Positions 1 to 64,000 of a DNA stretch of 64,000 nucleotides are shown here, piece after piece. Positions within the stretch are counted from its first letter, which is position 1. The number at the start of each line of letters is the position of its first letter. The notes under the pieces are model-generated. The model saw only the letters and a program-made list of their open reading frames with translations. It searched no databases and was not told the origin of the DNA. The translations under genes were made by a program, and so were the position numbers. Origin of the DNA: Symbiodinium natans (taxonomy: Eukaryota; Sar; Dinophyceae; Suessiales; Symbiodiniaceae); the NCBI GenBank assembly GCA_905221605.1, contig CAJNDS010002080.1, positions 60,001-124,000 of the forward strand. The letters run 5' to 3'.

Positions 1-64
1 TTAACCCCAAACATCCCTAAACCCCAAAACCTAAACCCCAAACCCTAAACCCTAAACCCCTCAC

Positions 65-147
65 TAGAAAGAAATCTGCGGGGCCGTGCGGCAATCGCCC
101 CCGCAGTCGCCGCAGGAGCAGTTGCAGTCTCCGCCACCACCGCCGCC
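65..147 (-). CDS. Exon candidate, Gly/Cys-rich
   Basis: GC-rich island on the minus strand with a pyrimidine-rich acceptor ending CCCCCAG at 148 and a GTGAGG donor at 64. In the phase continuing from the 506-573 exon it reads a Gly run followed by a Cys-rich stretch (GDCNCSCGDCGG). A second frame is Ala-rich and also open, so the frame is not settled. A CCCTAAA-type tract lies on its left and a TTTAGGG array on its right. No function recognised. Confidence 0.38.
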
Positions 148-180
148 CTGGGGGAATGGGTGTCGGGACTGGAGCTTGAT

Positions 181-265
181 TTTAGGGTTTAGGGTTAAGT
201 AGGGTTTAGGGTTTAGGGTTTAGGGTTTAGGGTTTAGGGTTTAGGGTTTAGGGTTTAGGGTTTAG
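181..265. repeat. Interstitial TTTAGGG array
   Basis: About ten near-perfect TTTAGGG units directly right of the first exon island. In gene sense this is a CCCTAAA tract upstream of the acceptor at 148. Confidence 0.9.
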
Positions 266-505
266 ATTTTCGGGTTTAGGTGCACCTGCTAGAACCCTTA
301 CCCTGAGAATCTCTCCGGCCCCATGATTCTTCCTCCCCCGCCCAAACAAAATGCCTGAACCCCAAGAAGCCGCATTCAAATACACACCACCGCCGAGCCC
401 CATTCTCACCCCCTATTGGAATTTAGGGTTTATAGGGTTTAGGGTTATAGGGTTACAGGGTTTAGGGTTATAGGGTTTAGGGTTTAGGGTTTAGGGCTTA
501 GGTGC

Positions 506-573
506 CTCGCAGCAGGCCGCGAAAACGCCAGCGACGGCGATGCCCACCAGGGCCAAGATCACCTTCAAGTCTT
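506..573 (-). CDS. Exon candidate, hydrophobic segment
   Basis: Minus-strand island that translates as a hydrophobic stretch (LKVILALVGIAVAGVFAACC) after Asp, with mostly G/C third positions. It has the look of a signal peptide or membrane helix. The acceptor reads ttgag and the donor is GC (GAG|GCACCT). It ends in phase 0, matching one frame of the 65-147 exon. Unlike most islands it has TTTAGGG-type repeats on its left. Confidence 0.42.
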
Positions 574-845
574 CTCAAATGTACACAGATCTTCCAAAAA
601 AGCCATAGTTGATTAAGGGGAAAAACCTAATTTATACTAAGGATCCTTACTGTGAAATTAGGGTAGATTCCGTAATTAAGGGTGTTTTTTGGAAGATCTG
701 GGTACCTGGAGATTCACGGGTACTTGCAAGTATAGGGTTTTTACAACGTAGGGCAACTGCTCTTATCACCCAAGCTAGGGTACCTGCAACCCTTCTTAAA
801 AGAATCCAGGAACCTCCGAGTAGGCGAACCTCATTCTCTCATTTG

Positions 846-940
846 CTGAGTTCATAAGCCCCAAAAAAGTGTATACTTTCAGTTCTATAGGGGATTCTGG
901 TATCCCAAAAAGTGTCAAGTGTACTCATTCAGCTACTAAG
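846..940. mobile_element. Small inverted-repeat element, family D
   Basis: About 95 bp starting at a gagttcataag motif, with aagtgtatacttt and a near-inverse agtgtcaagtgtac. A second copy with the same layout lies at 46491-46584. No ORF inside; MITE-like. Confidence 0.6.
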
Positions 941-1042
941 TTCTCCATTTTCCACCCAAAACGCCCCTAAACCCTAAACCCTAAACCCCTAAGGGGGAAC
1001 ATCCCAAGAGACAAGGCCTGACACCCTTCAGACAAAAAGTTC

Positions 1043-2341
1043 TCAGCTCGGTGCCATGGCCCAGAGCAAGATGGACCAAACAAAGAGCGTGACCACCTCA
1101 GCGGAAGACTTCGGGTGAAGGGCTATGGACTAGTGACTTGCCCAACCCTTTGAACCCTCGAACTTCAGGGTTTAGGGCTTAGGGCTTAGGGCTGAGGGTT
1201 GATGGCTTAGGGTTCATAGGGTTTAGGGCTTGAGGTTTAGGGTATAAGCAGACAACAACAACCAACTCGGAGATTTATGTGTGGCTTTGTGGTCCTTAGC
1301 CGAACTTCCTTCGAGATGTTGGCAAACGATTTGTGATTTGGTGGGTTGACGGCGTTGACAGCAATTTCGTCTTCGTCAAGCATGGCAGACCCCCTGTAAC
1401 TTCGCTTCGAGGAGTGTAGTAAGGTTTAGGATGCAGAGGCTGCCGCTTGCCATTTGTGAGCTCACAAACCACAGGTAAACTAGCTTCGCCAACTTTTTTG
1501 GGAACAGACGGCTATAGCAACTACGAACTCAAGGATCTAGTGCTTTCGGCTTGAGAGATCGGAGGGTTCAAAAAGCACTGCAAGATTCTGCAAAATATAG
1601 TACTGTACAAAATGAGGATGCGAAAATGTATACTAAACATGTACTTTATTCTACGACACCCAAACAAAATGTACGAAATAAGAAAACGACCACACCATAA
1701 ATATATGCATGTCTAAAATCTACTAGGACTATGATACACTTCATTACAATATACTGAAGAATACTGGGGCCCCCCGACCCAAGTACAGACCAAGAAGATG
1801 TAGAACCAGAGTCCAAGGTCCAGCACGTAGAACGTCCAGGCCAGGTCGTCCTGGTCTAGACCCAAACGACCCTAAACACTAAGCCCTAAACCGCAAATAG
1901 GATGCTTATAGCGGGGTTTGTAAGGGTGATTTGGGCGACGTGTCTAGGGTTGTTTGGGGTCGTGGTGCTCTTTAATGGGGCTTATATGGCATTTAGGGGG
2001 GTTTTAGAGGGTTGAGGGTGGTTTAGTATGGTAGGGTTGAGGGCTGAAGTGTCTGAGTATCTCTCACGCAGGGCATCGCAACGGGAAGAAGCTCTAAACC
2101 TGAAGGGGTTAGGATTCAGGGCTTTTCGTTTAGTACGTAGGGTTTAGAACCTTGGAACCTTAGAACCTTGGAACCCTAGAACCTTGGAACCCTTAGAAAC
2201 TCAGAACCTTCGAAGCCTCCGAGTGGTTCAGGGTTTAGGGCGTAGCGTTTGGGGCTTGGGGTTTAGGGTTCAGGGTTCAGGGTAAGGGCGCCTGGAAGAC
2301 CATGGCGCTGTAGTTCTCGACCACCTCGGGCCATGTGGCTG
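1043..2341 (-). CDS. Two-exon gene end, hydrophobic C-terminus
   Basis: Minus-strand chain of two exons. Exon 2292-2341 follows a strong acceptor (ctcctcaccag) and reads ATWPEVVENYSAMVFQ, ending in phase 0 before a GC donor (CAG|GCGCCC). Exon 1043-1096 also begins in phase 0 after ccgctgag and reads a membrane-like VVTLFVWSILLWAMAPS, then TGA. The 1195-nt intron contains TTTAGGG-like tracts. The plus strand of 1027-1108 is also open, so strand rests on splice signals and on the minus direction of neighbours. Product unknown. Confidence 0.42.
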
Positions 2342-2858
2342 CTGGTGAGGAGAAAAACGTTTCGGGGTTTAAAAGCACCAACCAGCCCGCAACTGGAAAC
2401 CCTGGGATTTGGGTGTTTAGCCCTTAGGGTGCTCGGGTTTAGGGTTTGAGGCTTTTGAGTTCAGGTTCAGGGATTAAAGCCCTACTTGGACTCCCCAAGC
2501 AACACATCATAACTAGCCAGAGGGTACTTGGGGGATCTAGGTACACCCTCGCTAGGCGTCAGTGACCAGTGAAGGCTTGGGATGTGTGGAAAGCAGGAGA
2601 AAAGCCGAAGCCGTGTCATATCCCTAAACCCCGAAGCCCTTGGAAAATTACGGAGGGTGCGTCCCTCTTCTTGGGTTCAGTCCCCCCTTCATGCCTGACC
2701 CCTGAAGCCCAGCGTACCACACAAGTTCGGATGAACCCTGAGACCCGACGTTCCCCCCACCCTGAACCCTATAAGCCCTAAACCCCCTAAACCCTATGAG
2801 CGGGTTCAACCCTAAACCCTAAACCTTAAACCCTAAACCCTAAACCCTAAACCCAAAC

Positions 2859-62319: not shown

Positions 62320-62724
62320 GACCACGAAGTAAAGCGTACAAGTATTTGAGGTAGCAAGAAAAGCCACTATAAATACATGGATAATTACGTACTTATTCCA
62401 TATGTATATATGTATATATATATATGTTCAAAAAGCGTACCTTGAGTACAGGTGTATTTGCTTGAGGGTGCATCGATTCCAATTGGGAAAACAAAAGCAA
62501 AAGAAATGCACTACTCATAAAAGTACAATATGGAAAGTTGGTGGACGACTCCACATATGCATATATATATACACACACACACGCGCACTTTATGAAACAT
62601 GGCCTTCTCAAGGCCGAGGGCTAGGGTTTCGGGCTTAGGGCTTAGGGTTTAAGATCTCGTGTTTCATGAGTTTATGAGCATGCGCTCTGTTTAAGCGTTG
62701 TTTGGGTCGAGGCTTGAAGAGCAC

Positions 62725-62758
62725 TTGGAGGATACCTCGCCCCTTCATGATCAGGCGC
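62725..62758 (-). CDS. Exon candidate, weak
   Basis: Reads RLIMKGRGILQ before GTGCTC; the frame stays open beyond (VLFKPRPKQRLNRA). Confidence 0.3.
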
Positions 62759-63000
62759 CTAAGCGCTAGACCCCCAACCCTAAGCAAGCCTTGTACCCTC
62801 CTTTCCTCAACCTCAAACCCAAAACCCTAAACCCCTCAACATCTGAATCCCCTCCCAGATTCCGGATCTCGGATTTAAGGTCGAGGGTCTGGCGTGAGCT
62901 CACAGGCCTTCTAGCGCTTCTACGGCTTAGAGGGGTTGTAGAGCTTATAGCCACTGTAGCCTAGAAGCCTATCATCCTCAAACCTCGTAGCTCTAAACCC

Positions 63001-63060
63001 TAAACCCTAAACCCTAAACCCTAAACCCTAAACCCTACACCCTAAACCCTAAACCCTAAA
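63001..63060. repeat. Interstitial CCCTAAA array
   Basis: Eight units left of exon 63070-63167. Confidence 0.92.
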
Positions 63061-63069
63061 CTCCCACAC

Positions 63070-63167
63070 AGCGGGCCCGCGGGGATCCTTGGCGACCTTG
63101 AGGAGCTCCTCCGACGAAAACTCTTGGGCGTCCCTGAGCTCCTTTTCGGTGGCAAGCGCGTACCCTT
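63070..63167 (-). CDS. Exon, 98 nt, helical
   Basis: Acceptor ccaactctacgcccag; reads YALATEKELRDAQEFSSEEL then LKVAKDPRGPA with strong G/C third-position bias; donor GCT|GTGTGGG. CCCTAAA array on the left, the 210-bp TTTAGGG array on the right. Charged helix; no family recognised. Confidence 0.6.
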
Positions 63168-63181
63168 CTGGGCGTAGAGTT

Positions 63182-63392
63182 GGGGTTTAGGGTTTAGGGT
63201 TTAGGGTTTAGGGTTTAGGGTTTAGGGTTTAGGGTTTAGGGTTTAGGGTTTAGGGTTTAGGGTTTAGGGTTTAGGGTTTAGGGTTTAGGGTTTAGGGTTT
63301 AGGGTTTAGGGTTTAGGGTTTAGGGTTTAGGGTTTAGGGTTCTAGGGTTTAGGGTTTAGGGTTTAGGGTTTAGGGTTTAGGGTTTAGTGTCT
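63182..63392. repeat. Longest TTTAGGG array, about 30 units
   Basis: 210 bp of nearly perfect TTTAGGG with one TCTAGGG interruption. Confidence 0.97.
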
Positions 63393-63561
63393 GGGGTTTA
63401 GGGTTAAAGGGTTTAGAGTTTGTAGGGCTTGTGAGCATTTCTGTGGCTTTTAAGGTTTGTAGGGCTCTTAGGGGTTCACGGTTTTCAGGGCTTGTAGGGT
63501 TTATAGGGTTTGTAGAGCTTCGGGCTTGTGCAAAGGTTAGGGTTTCAGTTGTTTAGGGAAC

Positions 63562-63627
63562 GACGGCATTCTTCAAGCAACAAGCTGCTTCAATCATCAC
63601 ATATTGTGGAGTCGAGAGCTTGGACAG
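63562..63627 (-). CDS. Exon candidate
   Basis: Reads LSKLSTPQYVMIEAACCLKN then AV in phase 0; acceptor cttctaataag, donor GTC|GTTCCC. Confidence 0.48.
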
Positions 63628-64000
63628 CTTATTAGAAGCCTTTTCTGACGTAGTCAGAAGGTTAGTAAGTCGGGGACTACAAGCAAGCCCTAAGCCGTAA
63701 GCCCTCTTCCCTAAACCCTAAACCGCAGCAAGTTAACACCTTTATGCCCTACACCCTGCCCTTGAGATACTACGATAAAGTCGACTCACTACCTCAACAG
63801 GGCTTCCCAGAAGGGGCTGAAGGAGCAGCCCTTTAAGTGCTAAGGCTTTGTGGATACGCTGTCAAGTGCTACTGCGTGCCTCAGCCCTTAGCCCCCCAAA
63901 GAAACCCTTCAGGGCCTTTTCTGCCAGTGCTTAGGGTTTAGGGCTTAGGGCATTAGGGTTTAGGGAGTCGAGGATCATGCCAACAGTCCTGGGCCAAGAT

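Follow-up and report, generated by a model that had tools for sequence, protein, structure and literature searches.

Strand-sorted telomeric arrays around exons in a Symbiodinium natans genome: orientation, intron age and a possible role at exon boundaries

Introduction

The window, i.e., the whole analysed stretch of 64,000 nt, is dense in telomeric arrays of both senses, with short islands of other sequence lying between them, and this raises the question of whether the sense of an array follows the edges of exons, and by what process it could do so. In the following, R denotes a CCCTAAA-sense array and F a TTTAGGG-sense array; for the window, the sense is that of the plus strand.

The host is a dinoflagellate with a 759 Mb genome containing 205 exact copies of the spliced leader. 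The telomeric 14-mer TTTAGGGTTTAGGG occurs in this genome 1,788,098 times in forward and 1,787,600 times in reverse sense (control 257 and 280), and telomeric repeats make up 27–47% of four segmented regions; the arrays are interstitial telomeric sequences, as they are tandem telomeric repeats at internal sites. The pattern R-N{85,115}-F gives 107,320 genome matches, a figure that may count several per place and by itself says nothing about orientation. In viral_contigs, telomeric R/F pairs with the N{85,115} spacer are absent in either order.

Arrays and islands in the window

On the plus strand the window carries 114 F and 139 R arrays, with 415 exact TTTAGGG-sense and 592 exact CCCTAAA-sense units. 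The first-pass annotation had listed 18 islands with CCCTAAA on the left and TTTAGGG on the right, and all 18 are indeed R-island-F intervals, the starts given as 39649, 45433 and 61518 falling 1–13 nt within the left array. The five exceptions that it named are real as well. All are given below, with a strand where one was assigned.

60..180, island 1, R 15-59, F 181-280; coding score 12.2 minus, 12.9 plus
2855..2933, island 2, R 2765-2854, F 2934-3014
7831..7985, island 3, R 7759-7830, F 7986-8053; CTC repeat adjoining open frame
8498..8570, island 4, R 8462-8497, F 8571-8641
11060..11252, island 5, R 11021-11059, F 11253-11277
13216..13313, island 6, R 13183-13215, F 13314-13365
22836..22982, island 7, R 22770-22835, F 22983-23052
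26883..27004, island 8, R 26849-26882, F 27005-27074
27925..28021, minus, island 9, R 27794-27924, F 28022-28087; coding score 11.5 minus, 8.3 plus
29664..29757, island 10, R 29616-29663, F 29758-29832
33251..33321, island 11, R 33224-33250, F 33322-33388
35465..35574, island 12, R 35437-35464, F 35575-35636
39650..39749, minus, island 13, R 39573-39649, F 39750-39798; score 8.3 minus, 5.8 plus
43020..43147, minus, island 14, R 42921-43019, F 43148-43199; coding score 15.7 minus, 12.9 plus
45435..45533, minus, island 15, R 45408-45434, F 45534-45607; coding score 12.1 minus, 9.2 plus
56516..56626, island 16, R 56415-56515, F 56627-56706
61531..61648, island 17, R 61413-61530, F 61649-61729
63062..63182, minus, island 18, R 62993-63061, F 63183-63416; score 14.8 minus, 11.8 plus
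497..964, exception at 506, F 422-496 left, R from 965 right
24499..24727, exception at 24550, F left, R right
34566..34697, exception at 34575, F both sides
40484..40715, exception at 40570, F left, R right
50624..50731, exception at 50645, F both sides

The coding scores of island 3 (24.9 minus, 25.9 plus) are raised by its CTC repeat. By eye, the minus frame of island 13 is coding-like, the open frame of island 18 is clear on minus, and the peptide of island 15 resembles what we take to be an EF-hand loop, for which no Pfam match was obtained.

The list of 18 islands is selective, given all interval types in the window (57 R-to-F, 56 F-to-R, 57 F-to-F and 82 R-to-R). The median gap is 127 nt for R-to-F and 274.5 nt for F-to-R intervals. 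R-to-F gaps of 60–200 nt number 38, compared with 26.7 ± 3.9 when labels are shuffled, and since 21 of 5000 shuffles reach 38, the window by itself shows a genuine, though modest, excess. Among intervals of 50–260 nt, a minus-strand coding score of at least 12 is found in 7/44 R-F, 0/22 F-R, 1/29 F-F and 1/39 R-R intervals, and the same plus-strand score in 4, 0, 0 and 1, respectively; because so few intervals reach it, most of the window islands are candidate exons only.

Only one gene within the window is firmly identified, and it counts against the rule:

3968..5020, minus, large 3' exon of an XK-related (PF09815) gene, which sets the local gene direction as minus
5137..5211, minus, preceding exon of the same gene, from spliced alignment to P0004; P0003 puts the exon differently

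The 116-nt intron between these two exons is array-free, and the nearest array upstream of exon 5137..5211 (5248-5280) is CCCTAAA on the plus strand, i.e., TTTAGGG in sense, the wrong sense for that position.

Orientation around homology-defined exons

What decisively confirms the orientation is not the window but a set of homology-defined exons from other parts of this genome. The exons belong to three array-rich dynein heavy-chain genes outside the window (one family), with splice sites placed by protein homology; 46 of them are confident (score of at least 40), and flanks were labelled over 150 nt. Upstream, 35 are CCCTAAA-dominated and 8 TTTAGGG-dominated, and downstream, 34 are TTTAGGG-dominated and 11 CCCTAAA-dominated. 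Both sides follow the rule at 28 of the 46 exons, against 6.8 ± 2.4 under random placement. The proposal that introns carry TTTAGGG sense near their 5' end and CCCTAAA near their 3' end, followed by AG, is therefore upheld far beyond random placement. As between a fifth and a quarter of the labelled sides are wrong-sense at this cut-off (8/43 upstream, 11/45 downstream), no array is essential.

An earlier set of 49 exons gave 36 R and 13 F upstream, and 32 F and 16 R downstream, with both sides fitting at 27/48 exons (13.8 ± 3.1 expected, maximum 24 in 2000) and the reversed arrangement at 7. Six of the 49 were dropped by hand as doubtful (one in C96, four in C1812, one in C1971) before the count of 43 donors given below; the extended sets rest on score cut-offs alone, with no hand removal. 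With the main query these hold 79 (score ≥18), 56 (≥30) and 46 (≥40) exons, compared with 39, 3 and 0 in the antisense control and 32, 6 and 1 in the reversed-protein control. Because control alignments yield many exons at a score of at least 18, headline counts are given at 30 or 40.

For the 56 exons with a score of at least 30, R occupies 54–55% and F 12–13% of the sequence 30–100 nt upstream, and F occupies 44–52% and R 20–21% of that 30–100 nt downstream. The arrays are concentrated 15–200 nt from exons, and the bias is mirror-symmetric about them and has faded by about 300 nt, beyond which each sense takes 15–27% with no consistent direction. It could be argued that telomeric repeats grow neutrally everywhere and that selection just removes wrong-sense arrays near splice sites, with no positive role; in line with this, both senses jointly form 35–42% of the sequence more than 300 nt from exons, and upstream there is slightly less of the wrong sense. 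However, the right sense rises upstream far over its background of about 16–20%, for which removal alone is insufficient, and downstream the wrong sense is not lower at all, so that enrichment contributes more than removal. We consider neutral growth with such removal alone quite unlikely.

A mutational origin deserves somewhat more credit, although we still regard it as unlikely. Here, telomerase would heal intronic breaks, adding TTTAGGG to the left end and CCCTAAA to the right, and the ends would then be rejoined, with the orientation unselected. This forecasts F at the left end and R at the right, each end independent of the other, as observed; telomeric repeats at double-strand breaks, introns included, are documented in mammals according to PMC7215372, and insertions in exons would presumably bring stop codons and be lost. 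It also forecasts compact F-R composites in plain DNA, but among 45 isolated clusters (at least two arrays, at least 400 nt from others) only 6 are F-first and R-last, against 20 R-first and F-last, 13 R/R and 6 F/F, although many of these clusters are probably centred on exons. Direct joints show no clear excess of F-R over R-F (32 vs 19), and the decay of the bias with distance from exons also speaks against this origin. R-F and F-R islands inside introns have similar lengths (p 0.47, zero gaps excluded), which counts against the marking of exon edges proposed below.

Splice sites and the age of the introns

The 43 introns have the traits of dinoflagellate spliceosomal introns: donors are GC (22), GA (11) and GT (10), the aligner having permitted only GT, GC or GA with AG, and the first exon base after the acceptor AG is G in 40/43 (62/79 in the extended set, 38/46 at a score of at least 40), a base that the aligner, which imposed AG, did not impose. 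The donor context is AG|G in 21/43. The first-pass annotation had introns begin with (GTTTAGGG)n, which does not hold, since the GC, GA or GT donor is followed by array-free sequence (median 32 nt). A donor GT inside the array, considered for the exon at 63070, likewise finds no support in the homology-defined introns.

Array-free stretches at the two intron ends measure about 32 and 28 nt, and their sum has a median of 67 nt, compared with 78 nt for whole array-poor introns. Moreover, for 13 of 33 introns in array-rich genes an array-poor paralog has a short intron at exactly the same position and in the same phase (null 1.6), as is the case for 7/13 at a stricter cut-off (null 0.2), so the array-less counterparts of the insertion sites are short introns at the same positions in paralogs, not orthologs. 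Judging from these positions, the arrays appear to lie in older introns, many of which would predate them.

This bears on the suggestion of a transposable element of the introner kind, with terminal inverted repeats of telomeric sequence, that makes introns on insertion. Inverted telomeric ends occur in 18/33 introns, the AG|G donors and the G after the acceptor look like short direct repeats, and introners are reported as active in dinoflagellates (PMC11453091, PMC9860276). Insertion did not create the intron, however, at the 13 of 33 ordinary short-intron positions, the array-free remnants at both ends match an old intron of 70 nt, and the two ends show no detectable coupling (see below). 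The introner-like origin thus fares poorly, and we hold it to be very improbable.

AG-free tracts before the acceptor have medians of 11 nt in R-type, 18 nt in F-type and 13 nt in array-poor introns; AG exclusion was rejected as a cause of the acceptor-side bias, the tracts being no longer in R-type than in array-poor introns. Array-poor introns of this genome show hardly any code of G-rich donors and C-rich acceptors (G/C skew −0.07 to +0.05), so the orientation does not simply extend a compositional code that was already there. The final R arrays lie nearer to acceptors than final F arrays (p 0.006), the donor-side counterpart not being significant (p 0.08).

Coupling of intron ends and of exon sides

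It had been proposed that the complementary arrays at the two ends of an intron pair and loop it out. Both ends are labelled in 33 introns, of which 18 are F/R and so have complementary ends, and in zebrafish, introns bearing dinucleotide repeats at their opposite boundaries reportedly fold into a hairpin and are spliced without U2AF2 (Lin et al. 2016, as cited in PMC9198270). The other introns comprise 6 F/F, 6 R/R and 3 R/F, no fewer than independent ends would give: the 18 are no excess, and neither an association between the two ends of one intron nor the zebrafish-type co-occurrence of opposite-sense repeats was detected in this small sample (Fisher p 0.68, n 33). Lengths and purities of the two arrays in one intron are not correlated (n 28). 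An array has its nearest complementary partner on the far side of the exon (median 104 nt, n 41), not of the intron (580 nt, n 28), and in competition folds of 19 triplets, 761 bp bridge exons against 114 between the ends of one intron, although by triplet the count is 9 vs 7. In other systems, according to PMC9198270, an exon is skipped more readily when sequences pair across it. Pairing of intron ends therefore finds little footing here, and we rate it as highly improbable.

The two sides of an exon are coupled in the 79-exon set (odds ratio 5.3, p 0.004) and at a score of at least 30 (5.6, p 0.025), and at scores of 40, 50 and 60 the odds ratios are 2.4, 1.4 and 2.3, none significant. We read this loss as a sign of false exons in the loose sets; a weak real coupling may exist, and would fit exon definition.

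Proposed mechanism

The reading that we prefer, to which we give about an even chance on present sequence evidence, is that telomeric arrays colonised old short introns and mark exon edges strand-specifically, each splice site being read separately. Interstitial arrays would have invaded spliceosomal introns that were already present and short, making them about ten times longer and leaving some 30 nt beside each splice site array-free. The C-rich strand could supply a CTAAAC branch-point-like motif and pyrimidine-rich sequence, aiding acceptor choice, and the G-rich strand could aid donor choice, where the consensus is nearly nil (G followed by C, A or T), through RNA G-quadruplexes or proteins binding G-runs; G-quadruplex-forming sequences are described as common near mammalian donors (PMC5778605). 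Arrays of the helpful sense would persist and lengthen until they bracket exons of about 50 nt, as in exon definition.

The wider claim is more tentative, and we would sooner doubt than assert it: that, throughout the genome, telomeric arrays were recruited to signal exon boundaries by their strand, CCCTAAA before and TTTAGGG after, acting separately at each splice site, offsetting near-consensus-free donors and letting exons of about 50 nt be spliced from largely telomeric introns.

Telomeric repeats are usually viewed as chromosome caps or internal scars, and here they are strand-sorted around exons. Should splicing lie behind the bias, the genome offers a natural experiment on the way consensus-free donors are found and on how a simple repeat can turn into a splicing signal; if it is mutational instead, it points to unusual telomerase-linked repair across a genome. 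Comparing mapped introns with array sense would be a cheap and direct test of intron definition versus exon definition in dinoflagellates.

Comparison with known systems

In the titles and abstract openings searched, a range that leaves out most subscription journals, we found no description of strand-sorted telomeric arrays around exons. To say that introns with complementary ends have never been described as a class was nevertheless too strong, since the zebrafish introns (Lin et al. 2016, via PMC9198270) also have simple repeats capable of pairing at both ends; in contrast to them, the arrays here have a telomeric unit and a bias centred on exons, with no coupling detected between the two ends. 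Amoebophrya introner elements, as outlined in PMC7789003, are likewise dinoflagellate introns with inverted repeats near their ends and direct repeats at the boundaries, but those inverted repeats are of 8–20 nt, in non-canonical introns with a seemingly transposable-element-like spread, whereas here long telomeric arrays lie in apparently older introns with G[C/A/T]..AG boundaries. The introners of Symbiodinium with TIR and TSD (PMC9860276) share a dinoflagellate host and inverted ends, which 18/33 introns have here; they create introns, whereas here many introns probably predate the arrays.

Short interstitial telomeric sequences at double-strand breaks (PMC7215372) are similar in placing telomeric repeats inside chromosomes and introns, and that source poses the question of whether they affect splicing. 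Their intronic share fits random insertion, unlike the approximately 3.6 million 14-mer matches and the sense bias at exons found here. Finally, the mammalian G-quadruplex-forming sequences near donors (PMC5778605) resemble our introns in being G-rich just inside the donor, whereas here the sequences are telomeric tandem arrays, with a matching C-strand bias before acceptors.

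Results and Discussion

Array Orientation around Dynein Exons

The searched genome (759.4 Mb, 2543 contigs, with the window at C1768:60001-124000) contains the telomeric pattern TTTAGGGTTTAGGG about 3.58 million times, compared with 537 for the reversed control. The order CCCTAAACCCTAAA-N{85,115}-TTTAGGGTTTAGGG has 107,320 matches, a number that by itself says nothing on orientation and in which a single place matches repeatedly. Below, F denotes TTTAGGG-sense and R CCCTAAA-sense arrays.

Dynein heavy-chain genes were located exon by exon with the Pfam profile PF12774 (dynein AAA_6). 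They vary, some having long open frames that reach 3242 codons and some short array-poor introns, while three, on contigs C96, C1812 and C1971, have long array-rich introns. Between G000:C2492, C158 and C1790 and these three, the structure of the paralogs varies from open frames 1517-3242 codons long to exons of about 50 nt.

Exons were defined with a purpose-written spliced protein-to-DNA aligner, which permits only GT, GC and GA donors and the AG acceptor, with the long-open-frame paralogs as queries. The first set held 43 exons of 22-90 nt, after 6 of 49 were taken out by hand; its donors were GC (22), GA (11) and GT (10) within the aligner's restriction to these three, while G, which the aligner does not impose, was the first exon base in 40 of 43. 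The extended set, for which the first 9.9 kb of C96 were aligned to the paralog C158 and the remainder to the main query, comprised 79, 56 and 46 exons at scores of at least 18, 30 and 40, and G came first in 62/79 at the lowest cut-off and 38/46 at the highest. Antisense and reversed-protein controls, run with the main query alone, gave 39 and 32 exons at 18, 3 and 6 at 30, and 0 and 1 at 40; we therefore relied on the two upper cut-offs. AGG is frequent at both boundaries, so exact splice positions are certain only to within a few bases.

The first-pass annotation had described exons bracketed by opposed arrays, and this was borne out on the homology-defined exons. Among the 46 exons with scores of at least 40, R arrays dominated the upstream 150 nt in 35 and F arrays in 8, and on the downstream side F prevailed in 34 and R in 11. 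Considering both sides, 28 exons were R-exon-F, 7 R/R, 5 F/F and 3 F/R, with an array missing on at least one side in 3. Random placement in the same genes gave 6.8 ± 2.4 R-exon-F cases (maximum 18 in 5000), a comparison carried by three genes of one family, whose exons are not independent within a gene and whose splice sites rest on protein homology; for the 56-exon set the values were 32 and 8.3 ± 2.7. The array profile is mirror-symmetric and local: coverage is 13% within the first 15 nt from the exon, 64-72% at 30-100 nt, where the right sense makes up 69-81% of it, and 35-42% beyond 300 nt, where F/R coverage is 22/16 and 18/17% upstream and 21/20 and 27/15% downstream.

The phenomenon is patchy, since a segment of roughly 7 kb on C1812 (kilobases 26-33 of the region analysed; G000:C1812:1186001-1193000) is nearly array-free inside one dynein gene alignment, with weak exon matches there. 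Arrays then resume, so array-rich and array-poor stretches alternate at kilobase scale.

What the Arrays May Do

It had also been proposed that the two ends of an intron could pair and loop it out, which would predict coupled ends. Where flanking exons scored at least 30, however, intron ends were F/R in 18, F/F in 6, R/R in 6 and R/F in 3 (p 0.68), and two further introns were labelled on one side only; in a looser set, 69 introns in all, the counts in that order were 29, 16, 15 and 3, with 6 incomplete (p 0.22). Lengths and purity of an intron's two arrays were uncorrelated (rho 0.18 and 0.21, n = 28), and the complementary partner of an array lies 104 nt away if reached across the exon, compared with 580 nt across the intron. 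With 200-nt flanks alone, at least 12 base pairs bridge the exon in 40 of 46 folds, and folding 19 exon-intron-exon-intron-exon segments put 761 base pairs across an exon vs 114 between one intron's ends, although counted per triplet the same folds stand at 9 exon-bridging vs 7 within-intron. These results argue against looping as a general function, while single introns may pair in this way.

Breakage healed by telomerase would explain the orientation without selection, but it predicts F-R composites, and among 45 isolated clusters 20 were R-first and F-last vs 6 F-first and R-last. Selection that merely removes harmful arrays does not explain the pattern alone, as the right sense climbs above background near exons, a rise for which removal is insufficient. 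Since these three explanations are each disfavoured, what remains, and is our best reading of the sequence, is that arrays may give strand-specific help at each splice site. On the acceptor side they would supply branch-point-like CTAAAC and pyrimidines ahead of the acceptor, and past the donor they could form G-quadruplexes or offer G-runs for binding. An AG-exclusion version of acceptor help was tested and failed, and introns of this genome that are poor in arrays show hardly any such base-composition skew.

Age of the Arrays Relative to the Introns

Intron positions were compared in common query coordinates between the array-rich genes and seven array-poor paralogs, with C1899, whose arrays are sparse, excluded. 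Exact position and phase were shared by 13/33 introns of the array-rich genes at scores of at least 18 and 7/13 at 30; shifting positions by 2-8 codons gave 1.6 ± 1.2 and 0.2 ± 0.4. Independent gain at an identical AG/G site (AG, then G) in two paralogs may account for single cases. Shared-position introns have median lengths of 68 nt in the array-poor partners vs 724 nt in the array-rich genes. The array-free ends of array-bearing introns are 32 and 28 nt, and their median sum of 67 nt (35 introns) comes close to the length of a short intron, the array-poor ones having a median of 78 nt (n = 41). The simplest history would be that old short introns took up arrays and other DNA in their middle and retained the sequence next to the splice sites.

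Islands and Other Repeats

Array calling in the window by exact unit rotations returned all 18 islands of the first-pass annotation as R-island-F, and its five exceptions as described. Its view of islands as exons held in part: of the four kinds of interval, R-F ones had the highest coding potential, but few pass the coding-score cut-off (7 of 44 on the minus strand, 4 on the plus), and not all of them are demonstrated exons. When the window is pooled with 46 kb of dynein loci, R-F gap lengths peak at 100-125 nt (36/117), a range that holds 14/116 F-R gaps. The sole firmly identified gene of the window is XK-related; its protein search gave 8 proteins including itself, the two named ones being from Symbiodinium (48-49% identity). 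Its homology-defined intron (5021-5136) is without an array, and the array nearest upstream of the preceding exon has the wrong sense.

The dinoflagellate spliced leader has 205 exact copies in the genome (control matches 0); these copies and the Symbiodinium proteins found with the XK-related one identify the genome as that of a dinoflagellate. Among the 100 of 205 places listed, six copies at G000:C479:102078-129887, on a single strand and mostly 3.8 kb apart, form a tandem array.

Other repeats of the window are as follows.

31580-32385, CA-type microsatellite of about 800 bp, several frames open on both strands
35950-37130, tandem repeats with a unit length of about 162 bp, whose CTGTCCCTAAAAAACC-like segments number 11 per strand (at most 2 mismatches), the repeat therefore being internally inverted
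37758-38250, tandem pair of about 220 bp, near-identical copies, in an AT-rich stretch without arrays (by eye)
18708-18790, 20398-20513 and 28343-28439, hairpins whose GGGATGTTCCCCCT-like ends are inverted and stand 68-101 nt apart
992 and 26723, lone GGGATGTTCCCCCT-like ends
17446-17505, 17837-17894 and 40907-40965, short hairpin elements whose TAGTACCTTTTTGG-like ends are inverted and separated by about 44 nt

The GGGATGTTCCCCCT-like hairpins are a second small inverted-repeat family beside the TAGTACCTTTTTGG-like elements, which resemble small MITEs or introner-type elements.
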